Shown piece by piece: positions 721 to 25,453 of a stretch of 26,193 nucleotides of DNA. This stretch comes from a virus, in the IMG/VR virus record IMGVR_UViG_3300008266_014510, positions 1 to 26,193 of that record; one strand, 5' to 3'. The notes under the pieces were generated by a model that saw nothing but the letters and a program-made list of their open reading frames with translations, had not been told where the DNA came from and did not search any database. How positions within the stretch are numbered: the first letter of the stretch is position 1; every line of letters starts with the position of its first letter. The position numbers and the translations under genes were made by a program.

Positions 721-1761
721 CTACAAATGTGCAAGTAATTCACGGAGTTTGTTAATAATATCATCAGCACTTCTGCGCATCTTTATTTCTGTCATGTCGA
801 ACATCCCTTCAACTGAAAAGCCTCTGAATGTACCATCTTTCACCTTTGCCCACGTTTCGTCATTGTTAACCTTTGCACCTAAAAACCAAGTTCCATCTGG
901 CAAGTCCTCAAATTGCTTCATTTTAGGAATGCCTTTGCTTTCATCTGCAATCCAACTTTGAAAGAAGGTAACACCTTCGATCGGCTTCATGTGCATCTCA
1001 TTTGCACTTTGCTGAAAACCTTTTGCATAGAACTTGAGTGCAATTGTTTCAATCGTTTTGCGATCAAAGAAAACATAGTATTCGCCTGTTTCGTCTTTTC
1101 TGTAAATAGGTAAATCAGGTATCATAGCCGGCCCGACAACAATGCGTTCTTCATTATTAACTACCGAAAAGCTGAATTTCTTTTCTCTATCTATTTGCTC
1201 AAGTTTACGCTGTGCCCATTCAATACCAGCGTCACCACCCCATGCCAGCCACATGAGCCGACCGCAGCCGTCGCCTAATTCCTTTTGGCTGTTTTGCCGG
1301 TGCCGTTCAAAAGCTGCCATTCTTGCAATTGTATCACGGCTGATTGGTTCGCCTTTAGCAAGTTGGTTAGCACGTGCCTTACCCACAGGAGTGCCACACG
1401 ACCCCCATCCGTTTTCCTCCGCCCACCTTAAAGCGATCTTCGCGTTTTCTGAAGCAGCTTTAGGATAGTCGGAATAACTTTCCTGCATATCCTGTTCCTG
1501 CATATTCCTATTTTTCCACATTGAATAGCAGATAGCCGCAGCCTGTTCCTGATCTTTACCCTCACTTACAACATATTCAATGCAGCGAGGAATGAACTCC
1601 TCTTCAGTCTCTTTTTCTCCGGGCTCAACAAATATCTGTTTACTAAATGCAAAGAAGTTCTCGCCGATTGCAGGAATGTCAACAAGTGCCACAGCATTGA
1701 CTTCCTGAATAGCAGTTTCGTCTTCTTTTATCGTTAATTTAAAAAGTGGTAACTGTTCCAT
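721..1761 (-). CDS. XkdF-like phage serine protease with N-terminal extension (probable prohead protease)
   Basis: 346 residues in three parts. Residues ~54-84 form a short motif, EEFIPRCIEYVVSEGKD...AICYSMW. Residues ~97-192 form a Trp-rich helical segment (ALRWAEENGWG, MWLAWGGDAGIEWAQ). Residues ~205-325 match the XkdF-type serine protease domain: VVGPAMIPDLPIYR, a His in NEMHMKP (H257) and a Ser in FRGFSVEG (S316). Known: XkdF-type and HK97-type prohead proteases use a His/Ser pair and process scaffold and capsid during head maturation. Inferred: maturation protease, with the N-terminal parts as partner-binding or self-cleaved regions. It starts 2 bases after the tape measure stop and ends before a terminator, which is odd because proteases usually sit between portal and capsid genes upstream of the tail genes. 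The Ser/His assignment is by motif only. Confidence 0.75.
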   Translation of the reverse strand: MEQLPLFKLTIKEDETAIQEVNAVALVDIPAIGENFFAFSKQIFVEPGEKETEEEFIPRCIEYVVSEGKDQEQAAAICYSMWKNRNMQEQDMQESYSDYPKAASENAKIALRWAEENGWGSCGTPVGKARANQLAKGEPISRDTIARMAAFERHRQNSQKELGDGCGRLMWLAWGGDAGIEWAQRKLEQIDREKKFSFSVVNNEERIVVGPAMIPDLPIYRKDETGEYYVFFDRKTIETIALKFYAKGFQQSANEMHMKPIEGVTFFQSWIADESKGIPKMKQFEDLPDGTWFLGAKVNNDETWAKVKDGTFRGFSVEGMFDMTEIKMRRSADDIINKLRELLAHL

Positions 1762-15006: not shown

Positions 15007-15540
15007 ATGCAACAACTACTAAAAATTCAGGGCGAACTAAAAGCCCCAAAGAATCAATTTAACTCATTCGGAAAGTATAAGTATCGATCCTGTGAAGATA
15101 TACTTGAGGCCGTAAAAGTGCTACTTACGAAGTATGGATGCACTCTTACACTTACCGATGAAATCAAAACGGCCGGCCCGATAACTTATGTCGAATCAAC
15201 GGCCACAATATGCCACGAAGGTGATTGCGTTTCCGTAAAGGCTCAGGCTGGTATTGACCCAAGTCGCAAAGGAATGGATCTTAGCCAATGCTTTGGGAGC
15301 AGTAGCAGTTACGCACGCAAGTATGCACTTTCAGGATTGTTTTTATTGGATGATAGTAAAGATGCAGATGCTACCAATACCGGCGGAAAGGATACCGATA
15401 ACAAGAAAAGCGAACTGATTGCATCCGTGTCAAAGCTTCCTGAAAACAAAAGAGCGGCAGCCTTGGAAACGATCAACAATGCTACCGATATGAAGACTCT
15501 TGTAATTATCGAAGATCGTATTAACAAACTTGTGCAATGA
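15007..15540 (+). CDS. erf: ERF-family single-strand annealing protein
   Basis: 177 residues. The N-terminal domain shows FNSFGKYKYRSCEDILEAVK (19-38), then the strand segments of the ERF core, and AGIDPSRKGMDLSQCFGSSS followed by SYARKYALSGLFLLDD (about 80-116), the signature of ERF recombinases. The C-terminal third (from ~118) is a linker rich in D/T/N/K and a helix, as is usual for the variable ERF tail. It anneals single strands during phage recombination and genome circularisation. Start preceded by AACCTAAAACA. Stop overlaps the next start (ATGA). Works with the VRR-NUC nuclease and SSB-like protein in the same operon. Confidence 0.9.
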   Translation: MQQLLKIQGELKAPKNQFNSFGKYKYRSCEDILEAVKVLLTKYGCTLTLTDEIKTAGPITYVESTATICHEGDCVSVKAQAGIDPSRKGMDLSQCFGSSSSYARKYALSGLFLLDDSKDADATNTGGKDTDNKKSELIASVSKLPENKRAAALETINNATDMKTLVIIEDRINKLVQ

Positions 15541-16634: not shown

Positions 16635-16874
16635 ATGTCAAACTACGACAACACAAACAGCGGCGTGCTGTTTACTAACGATCAAAAAGGAAATGAAAAA
16701 GCCCCTAACTACAAAGGGAAAATAAATGTAGGAGGAAAGGATTACGATCTTGCCGCATGGGTAAGGGAAGGTAAAAACGGAAAGTTTCTATCTGTAAAAG
16801 TATCTGAGCCGTATAAAAAGGATTCTGAATTACCGCCGATGCCTAAAGCTAAATCTCAAGACCTACCTTTTTAA
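16635..16874 (+). CDS. Small OB-like protein with SSB-type C-terminal tip
   Basis: 79 residues: NTNSGVLFTNDQKGNEKAPN, YKGKINVGGKDYDLAAWVREG, KNGKFLSVKVSEP, then a Pro/Lys tail ending SQDLPF. Known: many phages carry a short protein of the form 'tGaLF.N..k...hPdy.G.i.v.G.eywlsaW.ke...GkfmSl'; function not established, beta-barrel likely. Seen: the last residues DLPF resemble the DDxPF tip with which single-strand DNA-binding proteins recruit partners. Inferred: accessory ssDNA-binding or recruiting protein for the ERF/VRR-NUC/DnaB set around it. Two bases separate it from the next start. Confidence 0.55.
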   Translation: MSNYDNTNSGVLFTNDQKGNEKAPNYKGKINVGGKDYDLAAWVREGKNGKFLSVKVSEPYKKDSELPPMPKAKSQDLPF

Positions 16875-16876
16875 TC

Positions 16877-17296
16877 ATGGATAGATACAAAGCGATAAAA
16901 GAACTCGAGTCTATTATTGGGGAATTAGAACCTCATAAGCTGCTGAAGGTACATGAAATATTCAGGAAATTTAAACGCAAAGAGATACGTGAAAGGGTTG
17001 TTTATGCTGAATCAATTATTCAACCCTCAATTGATCTTCAAAGCGAAGCGAATCACATTGCACATCAGCACGGTATAACTTTGGACGAACTGTTAGGTAA
17101 AAAAAGGAACTTTCAGTTTACCTATGCGAAGACTCATTTCATCCGATATGTGATGATGAAGTACCGCAACTTAACTACTAAGCAGCTTGCTAATTTTATG
17201 AAGGTCGATCATTCTACGATTATTCACCATATGTATCATGTAAAGCATATGCAGCCGCTTCCCAGAATGATTAAAAAAAGGGTCTACTATGAATGA
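16877..17296 (+). CDS. Free-standing DnaA domain IV-like protein
   Basis: 139 residues. Residues ~50-120 match the DnaA C-terminal DNA-binding domain: ITLDELLGKKRN (67-78), AKTHFIRYVMMKYRNLTTKQLANF (84-107) and KVDHSTIIHHMYHV (109-122), equivalent to the DnaA 'R/K-DHsTVihA' signature helix. The AAA+ domain is absent; residues 1-45 are a charged helix. Known: domain IV binds DnaA boxes. Inferred: phage origin recognition, or interference with host DnaA; it lies in the replication operon a few genes upstream of the loader-like and DnaB genes. Overlaps the VRR-NUC gene by 8 bases. I could not pick out a convincing cluster of DnaA boxes. Confidence 0.8.
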   Translation: MDRYKAIKELESIIGELEPHKLLKVHEIFRKFKRKEIRERVVYAESIIQPSIDLQSEANHIAHQHGITLDELLGKKRNFQFTYAKTHFIRYVMMKYRNLTTKQLANFMKVDHSTIIHHMYHVKHMQPLPRMIKKRVYYE

Positions 17297-17669
17297 GAAA
17301 CAGGTTCATAAGGCAATATGCAAGTACTTGGATATGCAGTATCCGGATGTTATTTACACCTCCGATCCTTCAGGAATGCGGGTAAGTATCGGCTTGGTAA
17401 TGGAAATGAAAGCAAAAAGGTGTAAAAAATATCCGCTTCCTGATCTTATTGTTCTACAACCTTCAGGGCCTTATCACGGTCTTTGTATGGAAATCAAAAA
17501 GGATCTTTCAGAAATATTTACAAAGTCTGGGGATATGCGTAAAAACAAACACATAGAAGAGCAGCATAAGACTTTGAAGCAGCTGCAAAAGTTAGGTTAT
17601 GCGGCAATATTCGCAGCAGGATTTGACCACGCTAAAAAAGCAATAGATCTTTATTTTTCACAAAAATGA
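17289..17669 (+). CDS. VRR-NUC domain nuclease
   Basis: 126 residues, essentially one VRR-NUC domain. EKQVHKAICKYLDMQYPDV at the N-terminus, catalytic PD...ExK as P51-D52 (PDLIVLQPSG) and E68-I-K70 (LCMEIKKD), and a C-terminal helical part RKNKHIEEQHKTLKQLQKLG followed by YAAIFAAGFDHAKKAIDLYF. All expected acidic/lysine residues are present. Known: PD-(D/E)xK superfamily nucleases acting on branched or flapped DNA. Inferred: resolves or trims intermediates with the ERF annealing protein. Coupled to the methyltransferase gene by a 4-base overlap (17666-17669). Confidence 0.88.
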   Translation: MNEKQVHKAICKYLDMQYPDVIYTSDPSGMRVSIGLVMEMKAKRCKKYPLPDLIVLQPSGPYHGLCMEIKKDLSEIFTKSGDMRKNKHIEEQHKTLKQLQKLGYAAIFAAGFDHAKKAIDLYFSQK

Positions 17670-18598
17670 AACACGGTAGTTTATTTTCAGGAATCGGAGG
17701 CTTTGACCTTGCAGCCGAATGGATGGGATGGGAAAACGTTTTCCATTGTGAATGGAATCCTTTTGGACAAAAAGTTCTTAAACATTATTGGCCACATTCA
17801 ATCAGTTACAATGACATCACCAAAACAGACTTCTATATTCACAGAGGAGACATTGACATTATCACAGGAGGATTTCCCTGCCAACCATACTCATCCGCAG
17901 GAAAGCGACTCGGCAAAGAAGATGAGAGACATCTCTGGCCGGAAATGCTTAGATGCATTCGAGAAGTTTCCCCAATTTGGATTGTGGGCGAAAACGTTCG
18001 CGGCCTTACTAATTGGAATGGAGGGATGGTATTCGACGAAGTGCAAGCTGACCTGGAAGCTATCGGCTACGAAGTTACACCGTTTTTACTTCCAGCTTGT
18101 GCCGTCAACGCTCCGCACAGAAGAGACAGGATTTGGTTTATTGCCTACAGAAATGCTGCCAACGCCATGCCGATTCGATTACAACAGTGCGAGAACGGAA
18201 CAGAAATGGGAGGAGGACAAAGCGAAGTATGCGAAGCAGGGAGTGAATCTGCAAATGGGATTGAAACAAATGGCAAGATTCCAAATGCTACCGACTCCGA
18301 ATCTTTCGACATACAAAACAAGTGGCATGAGCAAAACAGCTTGGGAGAAAAGGATAAACGACAATCGGCAACAGGATTTAAATATGGAAATATACAAACA
18401 AACTGGACAACATTCCCAACATCTCAACCCACAATTTGTAATGGAGATGATGGGCTTTCCAACCGACTGGACGGAATTACCTTTCCTAAATGGAGAAACG
18501 AATCAATCAAAGCAGGAGGAAATGCAGTAGTTCCACAGGTAGTTTATCAGATATTTAAGGCAATAGAATCTTTTAATAATCAAAACCCAAAACCATGA
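17666..18598 (+). CDS. DNA (cytosine-5) methyltransferase
   Basis: 310 residues. Motif I LFSGIGGFDLAAEWMGW (6-22), motif IV GGFPCQPYSSAGKRLG (68-83) with catalytic Cys72, motif VI GENVRG (108-113), motif VIII NAPHRRDRIWFIAY (148-161), and motif X AGGNAVVPQVVYQIF (283-297). All core C5 motifs are present, so it should methylate a short DNA site and shield phage DNA from restriction. Residues ~162-250, where the target-recognition domain should be, are low in hydrophobics and rich in G/E/S/N/Q. The same DNA there encodes a more protein-like product in the +1 frame (see 17811-18530). Start overlaps the nuclease stop; stop overlaps the HTH gene start (18595-18598). No partner restriction enzyme is visible. 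Confidence 0.92.
   Translation: MKHGSLFSGIGGFDLAAEWMGWENVFHCEWNPFGQKVLKHYWPHSISYNDITKTDFYIHRGDIDIITGGFPCQPYSSAGKRLGKEDERHLWPEMLRCIREVSPIWIVGENVRGLTNWNGGMVFDEVQADLEAIGYEVTPFLLPACAVNAPHRRDRIWFIAYRNAANAMPIRLQQCENGTEMGGGQSEVCEAGSESANGIETNGKIPNATDSESFDIQNKWHEQNSLGEKDKRQSATGFKYGNIQTNWTTFPTSQPTICNGDDGLSNRLDGITFPKWRNESIKAGGNAVVPQVVYQIFKAIESFNNQNPKP
17811..18530 (+). CDS. Candidate overlapping gene inside the methyltransferase gene (+1 frame)
   Basis: An open frame runs from a TTG at 17703 to 18530; its first ATG (17811) gives 239 residues. The product looks like a real protein: DFPANHTHPQES (21-32), SGRKCLDAFEKFPQFGLWAK (42-61), LIGMEGWYSTKCKLTWKL (67-84), RFYFQLVPSTLRTEETGFGL (91-110), two MLPTP repeats (115-119, 159-163), and LNPQFV followed by MEMMGFPTDWTELPF near the end. 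I recognise 'W.st.C.LtWK..aTk..rl.FqLvpStprTe.tGfgLlPTp...LNP.fVe.mMGfP.dWT' as a pattern found in phage proteins annotated near or as part of DNA methylases. Ordinary shadow frames do not carry Trp/Cys/Pro motifs of that quality. Function unknown; a role in methylation or protection is inferred from location only. Whether it is translated is untested. Confidence 0.6.
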   Translation: MTSPKQTSIFTEETLTLSQEDFPANHTHPQESDSAKKMRDISGRKCLDAFEKFPQFGLWAKTFAALLIGMEGWYSTKCKLTWKLSATKLHRFYFQLVPSTLRTEETGFGLLPTEMLPTPCRFDYNSARTEQKWEEDKAKYAKQGVNLQMGLKQMARFQMLPTPNLSTYKTSGMSKTAWEKRINDNRQQDLNMEIYKQTGQHSQHLNPQFVMEMMGFPTDWTELPFLNGETNQSKQEEMQ

Positions 18599-19008: not shown

Positions 19009-19641
19009 ATGGCAAAAGATCCTGCATTTTTATTTTACACAAGTGATTTTTTAACCGGAACCTTAACGATGTCAGATGAACAAGTTGGTAGGTATATTAG
19101 ATTGTTATGCTTGCAACATCAAAAATATGAACTAACTGAAAAAGATATGTTATTCATATGTAAATCTTATGATGAAGATATTTATTCAAAATTTAAAAAG
19201 GAAGATGGTAAATTTTACAATGAAAGATTAAGGGAAGAATCTATAAAACGTTCAAAGTATTCAGAATCAAGGAGAAACAATAAATTAAAGAAAAAGATAT
19301 CTTCAACATATGTTCAACATATGGAAAATGAAAATGAAAATATAAATGATAATATAAATAATAATAATGGTAAAAAATCAAAATTTAAACCGCCTACTTT
19401 GGAACAAGTTTCTAAATTCTTTGAAGATAATGGATACATAAACGCAGACACGGCATGGAACTATTACAACGATGCAGATTGGACAGATAGCACAGGAAAG
19501 CCTGTACTGAATTGGAAACAGAAGATGCGGATAGTATGGTTTAGAGATGAAAACAAAAAGAAGATAACCCTCAGCCTGCATGATCTCGACCGCAGAGCAA
19601 GAGAACTTAACGATCAAATTTTATATCCCCACGAAAAATGA
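19009..19641 (+). CDS. Replication initiator / helicase-loader-like protein
   Basis: 210 residues. Residues 1-75 (DPAFLFYTSDFLTGTLTMSD, EQVGRYIRLLCLQHQKYEL, FYNERLREESIKRSKYSE) match the N-terminal domain of phage replication proteins of the DUF1376/YdaU type. An Asn/Glu-rich linker (ENENINDNINNNNG, 107-120) leads to a C-terminal part (TLEQVSKFFEDNGYINADTAWNYYNDADW, NWKQKMRIVWF) resembling DnaD/loader-type tails. It directly precedes and overlaps dnaB (ATGA at 19638-19641), as helicase loaders do. The 5' part is very AT-rich (about 13% G+C in the line starting 19321) and the last ~200 bases rise to about 37-45%, so the two domains probably have different origins. Confidence 0.7.
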   Translation: MAKDPAFLFYTSDFLTGTLTMSDEQVGRYIRLLCLQHQKYELTEKDMLFICKSYDEDIYSKFKKEDGKFYNERLREESIKRSKYSESRRNNKLKKKISSTYVQHMENENENINDNINNNNGKKSKFKPPTLEQVSKFFEDNGYINADTAWNYYNDADWTDSTGKPVLNWKQKMRIVWFRDENKKKITLSLHDLDRRARELNDQILYPHEK

Positions 19642-20966
19642 CAGGACTACAACCTCAAGCTAAAGACGCCGAAGCCGCTATTCTGGGTGCAATACTCATA
19701 GAAATGGGCGCATTCGACAAAGTCGCTGATCTACTTACACCGGATACATTTTACGTAACGGCACATCAAAGAATCTATTCAGCCATATGTGATCTTCAGG
19801 CTCAGCATCAGCCGATCGACCTGATAACTGTTACCGATAAACTTACAAGCAATGGAGATATGCAGATTGTAGGCGGTGCTTATGAACTCGTAAAACTTAC
19901 AAATAATGTAGTTTCATCGGCTAATATTGTCAATCATGCCCGGATAGTTTATGAAAAGTACGTACTTAGAAAGATAATTCAATTATCATCAACGCTAACA
20001 GCTAAGGCTTTAGAAACGGATGCGGATGCCTTTGAGATCTGCGACCTTGCAGAAAAGCATATTCTCCAACTTGCTGATAACAAAACCTCTGATGCCTTAC
20101 ATATTTCGAAGGTTGTAGTTGACACATTGAAAAAGATTGACAAGTGGAAGCAGTCAGGATCGGCGATAACAGGTGTTAAGTCAGGATTCAATGAACTTGA
20201 CTTTAATACACGAGGATGGCAACCCGGTGATCTCGTAATTATAGCAGCCCGACCATCTGTAGGTAAGACAGCCTTTGCTCTGAATTTGGTGCGCAATGCT
20301 GCGATGAACGGCACCGGTGTCGCTGTCTGGTCTTTAGAGATGAAAGCCCCGTACTTAGCACTCAGGATGCTTGCCGCTGAATCAAATATAGTTTTGAAAA
20401 AATTACAGATAGGCAGAATCGATGAAGTAGATCAGGTAAAACTTACACAGGCTGCTGAACAACTAAGCAAACACAACATCTTTTTTGATGATGCTAATGC
20501 TGTAAACCTTAGATCTTTAAAAGCCAAAGCACGAAGGCTGAAGAAGAAAAACAATATTGGTATGATTGTTATTGACTACCTGCAGCTTATGCAGGGAGAA
20601 TCAAAAAACAACAGAGAACAGGAAATATCTACAATCAGCAGAGAACTTAAAAACCTCGCCCAAGAACTTGAGATACCGATTATTGCCCTGTCGCAATTAA
20701 GTCGGGAAGGCGTAAAGAACAGCAATTGGGATACACCTCCGCCAATATCAGCACTCAGAGAATCAGGTGCAATCGAACAGGATGCAGATTTGATTTTGAT
20801 GTTATGGGGCGCAAATGATGCTGAAAGGATGCAGGATATAAACTATGAAAACAAAAGGAGGATAAGAATAATGAAGCAGCGGAATGGTATGCTGATGACT
20901 TGCGATCTTGATTTTAAAAATGAGATTCAATTGTTTAATACGATTGTCAATGGATCACCATTTTAA
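19638..20966 (+). CDS. dnaB: Replicative DNA helicase, DnaB family
   Basis: 442 residues, full-length DnaB layout. N-terminal DnaB domain (AEAAILGAILIEMGAFDKVADLL..., HQRIYSAICDL, ~9-105), a linker, then the RecA-like motor: Walker A ARPSVGKTAF (204-213), WSLEM (231-235), Walker B GMIVIDYLQLM (308-318), LSQLSREG (351-358), SALRESGAIEQDAD (371-384) and MKQRNGM (412-418). It unwinds DNA at phage forks and is presumably loaded by the preceding gene product. Last gene of the plus operon; its stop (20964-20966) lies 20 bases inside the convergent lysozyme gene and no terminator hairpin is visible between them. Confidence 0.95.
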   Translation: MTGLQPQAKDAEAAILGAILIEMGAFDKVADLLTPDTFYVTAHQRIYSAICDLQAQHQPIDLITVTDKLTSNGDMQIVGGAYELVKLTNNVVSSANIVNHARIVYEKYVLRKIIQLSSTLTAKALETDADAFEICDLAEKHILQLADNKTSDALHISKVVVDTLKKIDKWKQSGSAITGVKSGFNELDFNTRGWQPGDLVIIAARPSVGKTAFALNLVRNAAMNGTGVAVWSLEMKAPYLALRMLAAESNIVLKKLQIGRIDEVDQVKLTQAAEQLSKHNIFFDDANAVNLRSLKAKARRLKKKNNIGMIVIDYLQLMQGESKNNREQEISTISRELKNLAQELEIPIIALSQLSREGVKNSNWDTPPPISALRESGAIEQDADLILMLWGANDAERMQDINYENKRRIRIMKQRNGMLMTCDLDFKNEIQLFNTIVNGSPF

Positions 20967-24200: not shown

Positions 24201-24434
24201 TTATGTGAATATTGCAAGTGCTATCCCGATGCTACCGCCGGCAATAGTGTATAAAAAATCAAAGACATCAGGCCGGCCGTAATCGTGCCAATCCTTTAAC
24301 TCTTTAAACAATGCCGCTCCGAACACCGTTGATGCAACCCACATCCAATGCGCCCCGATTGCTTCAAAGAATATCAATGCTGCAAAGCTTATCCAACAGC
24401 CCGCCCAAAAGTGCATTTCTCTGTCCATTCTCAT
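24201..24434 (-). CDS. Small membrane protein, possible holin-type
   Basis: 77 residues. [21 protein letters not shown] and [18 protein letters not shown] give two hydrophobic helices, and [18 protein letters not shown] a third; a polar loop [13 protein letters not shown] lies between the second and third. Topology and size are compatible with class I holins, and 'KE..D....g..d..D.l.t..Gg..G' is also typical of a small phage/bacterial family of membrane proteins with no assigned role. It lies 8 bases from the spanin-like gene. Two other holin candidates exist in this operon, so this call is tentative. Confidence 0.5.
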
Positions 24435-25453
24435 TTGCTAAATATTTTACGAAGGATTAAGGTATCGTTTTGAATTGGGCCATCTGAAAGGCATGGCAAA
24501 GAATAATCACAACCGCTTAAACCTACATTCCAATCAGCATACTTTTTGCTCGTAGCACCTAAAGTCGTTCCCATTATTGGCACATATGGCTTTGTGCCTC
24601 CCGTACTGTATTCATTGCATCCTGTGCAGCTTGCAGAACTCTGATGAAACAATCCTAAGGTATGGCCGTATTCATGCGATATAATTTGTGAAATAGAAGC
24701 CTGATTGTAAAGTAAGCTGTGCTCAAACACAAAACCCGGGTTGCAATCTGTATTTAAGGCAATTCCATTATTCAAAATATCATCAAACATACTTTGAACT
24801 GCAACACCTCCATTACCGCAAAAATCGCAATCAGTTCTGCTGTTAATTACAATACGTAAGCGGTAAATTCTACTGGCAGATTTAAATATGTTTTCATCTG
24901 TTGTAATAGTCACATTGTAGTTTCTGAATTTTGACCTTACTGTATCTACAATATTCTTTATTTCAGCGGCCGATAATTTAGAAGCAGGATAGAATCCTGT
25001 CGTAAAAAATGAGCCAGCGCATTGCAAATCGTAACCATCAAAATCTAACAAAAGAACAAACTTGTAAACGGGCATCGGTGTTATTGTTGTGTTTGTGTCT
25101 GCAGGTGTTACTATTGGCACATCGCAGGCATCACCGATACCATCTTTGTCAGTATCTGCCTGATCGGGATTAAATACATTCGGGCAGTTATCCTGCCCGT
25201 TTGCAACACCATCCCTGTCACGATCTCTGCTAACTTCTTTAACAGCTCTGCCGTTGACCATGTCAGGCTCAAGTTGGCCACGCAATACACCTTTAAAATC
25301 AGCAGATGCAGGGTCTACAGCAATGCGGCTTTTGCTCTGCAACCTATTTACATTCTGCGCATCTTTATTGCATTTGCCCAAATAAAAGGTAGTTGCCGTA
25401 AACATAAACAGCGTAAAAATATAGGCATAAGCCCGCTTTGCTGGATTGCTCAT
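24431..25453 (-). CDS. Secreted metzincin-like zinc metalloprotease with TSP3 repeats
   Basis: 340 residues. N-terminal signal or anchor ([18 protein letters not shown], ~9-26). Residues ~76-111 hold thrombospondin type 3 repeats: [20 protein letters not shown] then [12 protein letters not shown], which bind calcium. The catalytic core has [11 protein letters not shown] (260-270), the HExxHxxGxxH zinc site of metzincins, and a Met-turn candidate at M294 (VPIMG). Cys pairs ([25 protein letters not shown]) suggest disulfides outside the cytoplasm. Inferred: cleaves proteins in the periplasm or outside. Linked by ATGA overlaps to the genes on both sides (24431-24434, 25450-25453), so it is part of the lysis operon. 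Such an enzyme is uncommon in phages; host-derived acquisition is likely. Confidence 0.88.

Follow-up and report, generated by a model that had tools for sequence, protein, structure and literature searches.

A phage C5 cytosine methyltransferase very probably encoded by two overlapping genes, with a predicted recognition half in the +1 frame of the catalytic half

M.EaeI is the same kind of split enzyme as M.EcoHK31I (YGGCCR), and the small gene of M.EcoHK31I lies inside the large gene in another frame. The multispecific C5 methyltransferases of Bacillus subtilis phages are single chains, in which several target-recognition (TRD) modules stand in tandem after motif VIII and before motif IX. 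M.EcoHK31I has been described as a naturally split C5 enzyme consisting of two polypeptides, with motif IX alone located in the small one (PMC3404938), and it was used as a naturally split enzyme in a further study (PMC3439449). The multispecific methyltransferases of the B. subtilis phages SPR, phi3T, rho11 and H2 go back to Wilke et al. (1988) and Behrens et al. (1987), as cited in PMC8936443 and PMC4081073. Of 715 co-directional overlaps longer than 60 bp that one survey examined in prokaryotes, none was judged to be real (PMC2478687).

We analyzed a stretch of viral DNA of 26,193 nucleotides (IMG/VR record IMGVR_UViG_3300008266_014510; hereafter the window), in which a methyltransferase gene sits in a phage replication block. 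This gene region very probably comprises two genes in one DNA stretch, one for the catalytic half (alpha) and one for the site-choosing half (beta) of a cytosine methyltransferase. The features of the region are:

15007-15540: ERF recombinase
16635-16874: SSB-like gene
16877-17296: DnaA-C-like gene
17289-17669: nuclease-like ORF, just upstream of the methyltransferase
17666-18598, + strand: alpha, C5 cytosine methyltransferase large chain, 310 aa (PF00145, E=2e-47)
17666-18181, + strand: alpha catalytic domain, residues 1-172, mostly confident in the AlphaFold2 model, motif columns conserved (A2, A6), with motif I (FSGIGG)
17876-17884, + strand: alpha motif IV (PCQ)
17990-17998, + strand: alpha motif VI (ENV)
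from 18116, + strand: alpha motif VIII (HRRDR)
18182-18481, + strand: alpha low-complexity linker, residues 173-272, pLDDT below 50, near-neutral dN/dS in the alpha frame
18485-18583, + strand: alpha motif X segment (GGNAVVPQVVYQIFKAI), residues 274-306, confident model helices, conserved A6 columns
17811-18530, + strand: beta, +1-frame ORF of 239 aa, putative TRD and motif IX subunit; matches phrog_1008 (PHROG 1008, 'DNA methyltransferase'), E=1e-20
17811-17813, + strand: beta start codon ATG, made of the last two bases of alpha Asn49 and the first base of Asp50
18153-18284, + strand: beta module 1 (MLPTPCRFDYNSARTEQKWEEDKAKYAKQGVNLQMGLKQMARFQ), family G, common to loci L009, L011 and L062
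18285-18422, + strand: beta module 2 (MLPTPNLSTYKTSGMSKTAWEKRINDNRQQDLNMEIYKQTGQHSQH), terminal type
18423-18485, + strand: beta motif IX equivalent (LNPQFVMEMMGFPTDWTELPF), conserved columns (A1, A5), aligned with ShiLan gp70 LAPAFSEWMMGWPAGWVT
18528-18530, + strand: beta stop codon
19009-19641: possible replication gene, downstream of the methyltransferase
19638-20966: DnaB helicase

In the Bacteroides phages BKO1-TP3 and BS-TP4 (L001, L002), VRR-NUC-type and replication-initiation genes are found close upstream of the methyltransferase. Elsewhere in the window, positions 24431-25453 (- strand) encode a phage protein with weak matches to a Reprolysin-like met-zincin and to TSP_3, and positions 721-1761 (- strand) encode an XkdF-like S78 protease that also matches phrog_1530, a PHROG whose label 'DNA methyltransferase' is probably a mislabelling.

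Alpha shows the catalytic motifs I-VIII of PF00145, including PCQ and ENV, followed by a disordered linker and a C-terminal motif X. Its residues 5-168 align with residues 16-178 of M.HhaI, and no alignment was obtained past motif VIII. The AlphaFold2 model of alpha is largely confident at residues 1-172 and 274-306, with pLDDT below 50 at residues 173-272, and its top PDB matches (Foldseek), M.HhaI and M.HaeIII, cover only the catalytic domain (~165 columns). Therefore, the M.HhaI alignment, the model confidence and the Foldseek matches define alpha as a chain of motifs I-VIII and X without TRD or motif IX; both were absent from alpha in the motif alignments and in the AlphaFold2 model, and their equivalents are found in beta.

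The +1 frame is open over 828 nt (17703-18530), with its first in-frame ATG at 17811, and the +2 frame of the alpha region contains 21 stops. No Pfam or NCBIfam model matched beta, the beta profile matched nothing among solved structures in a PDB sequence search, and its motif IX, taken alone, showed a weak likeness to that of ordinary enzymes (E about 0.6). The AlphaFold2 model of beta alone was poor (mean pLDDT 57.5) and, because of this low confidence, was not used for a fold search. A preliminary description of this DNA had reported two open frames on one strand, a low-complexity middle of the methyltransferase frame, and the strings STKCKLTWK, FQLVPST, MLPTP (repeated) and MMGFPTDWTELPF in the +1 frame; all of these were recovered, with alpha open from 17666 to 18598, its residues 173-272 predicted to be disordered, and the ATG of the +1 ORF at the position reported. 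The same description had credited the alpha frame with all core C5 motifs, which needs correction: motifs I-VIII and X are present there, but motif IX, together with the TRD, lies in the +1 frame instead.

The assignment of beta to the recognition half came from actinophage homologues. ShiLan gp70 and Phinally gp5 each combine, in a single chain, motifs I-VIII, an array of three or five LPTP modules, and motifs IX and X; the motif IX of ShiLan gp70 (LAPAFSEWMMGWPAGWVT) is located upstream of motif X and is followed by IIGNGVVPQQAAAAL, which represents X in single-chain enzymes. The beta HMM matched both proteins in the TRD position (ShiLan gp70, E=2.7e-16; Phinally gp5, E=2.1e-13), so that beta appears as the detached TRD and IX half of such an enzyme. 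In Shaka (gp77/gp76), Camperdownii, JaNo, Float294, RedFox and Eesa, the first protein comprises motifs I-VIII and the second protein LPTP modules, motif IX and motif X. We call the modules TRDs on the basis of their position between VIII and IX in the single-chain enzymes. As judged from these sequence comparisons, beta of the window would be the TRD and IX part of the enzyme read in the +1 frame, with X returned to alpha. ShiLan (L297:901-2070) and Phinally (L296:852-2408) also keep a beta-like N-terminus in the +1 frame with two LPTP modules and no motif IX (E=1.6e-24 and 9e-17, respectively), as if the array had changed frame midway. From the single-chain enzymes together with these +1 remnants it follows that the module array occurs in either frame. 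The DNA order VIII, TRD, IX, X is common to overprinted, split and single-chain forms, the exceptions being two rearranged loci (L217:1459-2435; L226:1450-2434), in which copies of motif IX are present in two frames and motif X in a third or in the beta frame; this scrambling suggests frame switching through indels.

Relatives of beta were identified in 68 phage records, which include phages of Bacteroides, Paenibacillus and Lacticaseibacillus as well as a marine podovirus. Beta was in the +1 frame relative to alpha in each of the seven phage loci that were examined closely, in 89/89 entries once 80 IMG/VR loci had been added (overlaps of 495-1137 nt; the entries take in the window and two copies of itself), in 41/41 loci from bacterial genomes, and in 128/128 beta-seeded loci overall, the loci being related to each other and the counts thus not independent. 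Eight loci with an ORF of the type 'YFLS..GILRRA' were dropped from the counts, the iterated HMM having drifted into them (E about 5e-6). A search seeded with alpha yielded 131 loci, 107 of which have beta in the +1 frame with an overlap of >200 nt; the other 24 comprise 17 loci of another methyltransferase clade (which have a TRD and IX of their own or are split differently), six contig ends, and L217, whose pieces are scattered over frames. Among proteobacteria, the family was present in 27 of 398 genomes, and 27 of the 28 beta-matching loci overlapped alpha in +1; in the phylum of L097 it was found in only 4 of 299 genomes.

For 33 locus pairs of 5-22% divergence, differences were classified by their effect on both frames (a custom, OLGenie-like count). 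Where beta overlaps the catalytic core, dN/dS was 0.08 for alpha and 0.43 (0.33-0.52) for beta; in the linker, it was 0.75 (0.68-0.82) for alpha and 0.38 (0.30-0.47) for beta, and the most variable site was the first alpha codon position, i.e., the wobble position of beta. Synonymous recoding of the linker part of beta led to an expectation of 7.6 alpha stops per locus, and none was observed in 64 loci. An ATG is kept at the beta start site in 55 of 73 loci, and the alpha codon over this site is xAT in 56 cases and xAC in one, compared with 51:49 elsewhere in alpha (related loci); an ATG at the start of beta requires an xAT codon in alpha. Both frames are maintained by selection in these related loci. 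The preliminary description had proposed a comparison of both frames across homologues, and had suggested that the overlapping gene might replace the recognition part of the methyltransferase. Across homologues, beta evolves with a dN/dS of about 0.4, its start ATG is conserved, and alpha is stop-free; the homologous genes are devoid of stops in +1, and single-chain as well as end-to-end split actinophage enzymes match the +1 product outside the overlap. The suggested replacement is supported by the partition of the motifs and by the TRD position in the single-chain homologues.

Because beta is in the +1 frame of alpha throughout, a +1 ribosomal frameshift anywhere in the overlap would produce a fusion of I-VIII, TRD and IX besides alpha, and beta might then arise by frameshifting off alpha and not from a start of its own. 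We regard this as improbable, since the internal ATG is selected (xAT over xAC, as above) and the N-terminal part of beta over motifs IV-VIII, which a shift after VIII would not need, is under purifying selection (dN/dS 0.43). Internal initiation is therefore preferred, given the selection on the start ATG as well as on the N-terminal part of beta that precedes the modules. Beta might also be an independent accessory or antirestriction protein, which overlaps the methyltransferase but does not complete it, and the low identity of the families, the missing structure match and the poor model of beta would be in line with such a protein. However, alpha is without TRD and IX wherever beta overlaps it, the same modules and motif IX are fused in single-chain enzymes or joined to X in split ones, and the co-occurrence of alpha and beta is near obligatory; this makes an independent protein very unlikely. 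In 1000 synonymous shuffles that changed neither the alpha protein nor its codon counts, evaluated with a beta HMM built without the window, no recoding had a stop-free +1 frame (mean 5.1 stops), and the best recoding reached 104 bits, whereas the real sequence scored 174. Although recoded alpha genes average 57 bits in +1, so that some shadow of alpha conservation exists, these differences, together with a beta dN/dS well below 1 and the near-neutral alpha frame within the linker, leave a negligible chance that the +1 ORF is a non-coding shadow.

The stretch of beta from its conserved N-terminal part to motif IX is built of one to five modules of about 30-45 aa, each starting with LPTP or a close variant; the beta of the window carries two. 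In 60 loci, we distinguished 162 modules belonging to 73 families, 25 of which are shared; families A, B, C, G and H are never terminal, and families D, E, F, J and K are always terminal. Among the 234 locus pairs whose cores share at least 88% identity, 225 differ in their module strings. L066 and L075, e.g., have identical core DNA and the module strings V-W-K and A-Y, respectively. In BLASTN comparisons, L022 and L036 share 95% identity as far as the module block, diverge inside it, and return to 89% identity over IX and X, and the same sharp breakpoints flank the module block in L046 and L082. The string differences between near-identical cores and the BLASTN breakpoints thus show cassette replacement between related cores. 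Transfer of cassettes to very different cores was looked for as pairs with cores <75% identical and a module of at least 92% identity; none of 1770 pairs was of this kind. By analogy with the tandem TRDs of the B. subtilis phage enzymes, each module may have its own target, and array swapping suggests exchangeable, possibly multiple, specificities.

The best explanation, which we consider highly probable, is a split C5 methyltransferase with both halves on one DNA stretch, in which TRD and IX are overprinted and the halves assemble into an active enzyme with cassette-array specificity. Alpha would supply motifs I-VIII and X, which form the large domain with the catalytic function, and an internal ATG in the +1 frame would start beta, the small domain with TRD modules and motif IX. 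The order on the DNA would be that of an ordinary C5 methyltransferase, and because TRD and IX are read in the other frame, the alpha frame would pass through this part only as a disordered linker en route to X. From the sequence evidence, we infer that beta is translated and forms a complex with alpha, and that the resulting enzyme is active and would methylate the DNA of the phage, most likely as a shield against host restriction; an antirestriction role through self-methylation is likely. One LPTP module would probably represent one target-recognizing unit, and arrays of one to five modules, exchanged as cassettes among phages, would change or widen specificity. It is also likely, to a good degree, that this is a widespread phage and prophage type, with exchangeable recognition cassettes in the +1 frame of the catalytic gene, each dual-coding (a module in one frame, a stop-free disordered linker in the other) and swapped between near-identical cores, and with an array that can move between frames to give single-chain, end-to-end split and overprinted forms.

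A different +1 ORF of 128-150 aa lies over motifs IV-VIII in other loci (L254:1772-2155; L257:1790-2173; L243:1694-2143; and L240-L253). It is carried by C5 methyltransferase genes of phages, whose products are either single chains or split behind motif VIII, and it ends in '[RK]Y[FY]LS.[KA]..GIL[RK]RA..[RK]GK.LP'. Homology between beta and this ORF was not significant (hhalign probability 1.8%), and the 'GIL[RK]RA' ORF may represent a second hidden gene family.

The arrangement described here would be a long, same-strand, fully nested overlap, conserved in Bacteroidota, Bacillota and Proteobacteria, with a function on both frames. It would explain the many phage 'DNA methyltransferases' seemingly without a recognition domain, as well as annotation pipelines calling one frame in some places and the other frame elsewhere. 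For cytosine methylation, it would also offer a large number of naturally occurring recognition modules that can be swapped, with a module-to-target code open to direct testing.

In the literature searched, which covered few subscription papers, we found no paper describing the phage overlap, nor a description of a dual-coded cassette array that is shuffled and moves between frames. The Paenibacillus phages Lily and Rani and PHROG 1008 contain the same protein family as beta, and the overlap is annotated in these phages as an 'internal gene'; the entries carry no function, module structure or split-enzyme reading. M.AquI-type split enzymes and the actinophage pairs (Shaka gp77/gp76, Eesa gp39/gp40) resemble the window in having I-VIII in one chain and the TRD part with IX in the other, and the second actinophage chain is homologous to beta. 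However, in the M.AquI-type and actinophage pairs the second chain also carries X and the genes share only a short overlap, whereas in the window X belongs to alpha, within which beta is completely nested. The B. subtilis phage enzymes are likewise phage-borne, with tandem modules between VIII and IX (the TRD role in the window being assigned by position), but they are single chains, and the modules of the window are located in an overlapping +1 gene with an LPTP signature. M.EcoHK31I shares with the window a large chain of I-VIII and X and a second chain with motif IX; according to the literature its TRD is in the large chain, whereas the TRD modules of the window are in the small chain, i.e., in the beta frame. 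Variable cassette arrays occur in the family of the window, and M.EcoHK31I, compared by its published layout, has no such description. Given the split of M.EcoHK31I and the 'internal gene' annotation in Paenibacillus phages, the kind is therefore already known: the locus is a dual-coded version of the M.EcoHK31I type of split enzyme, and its array layout is a variant of that kind.
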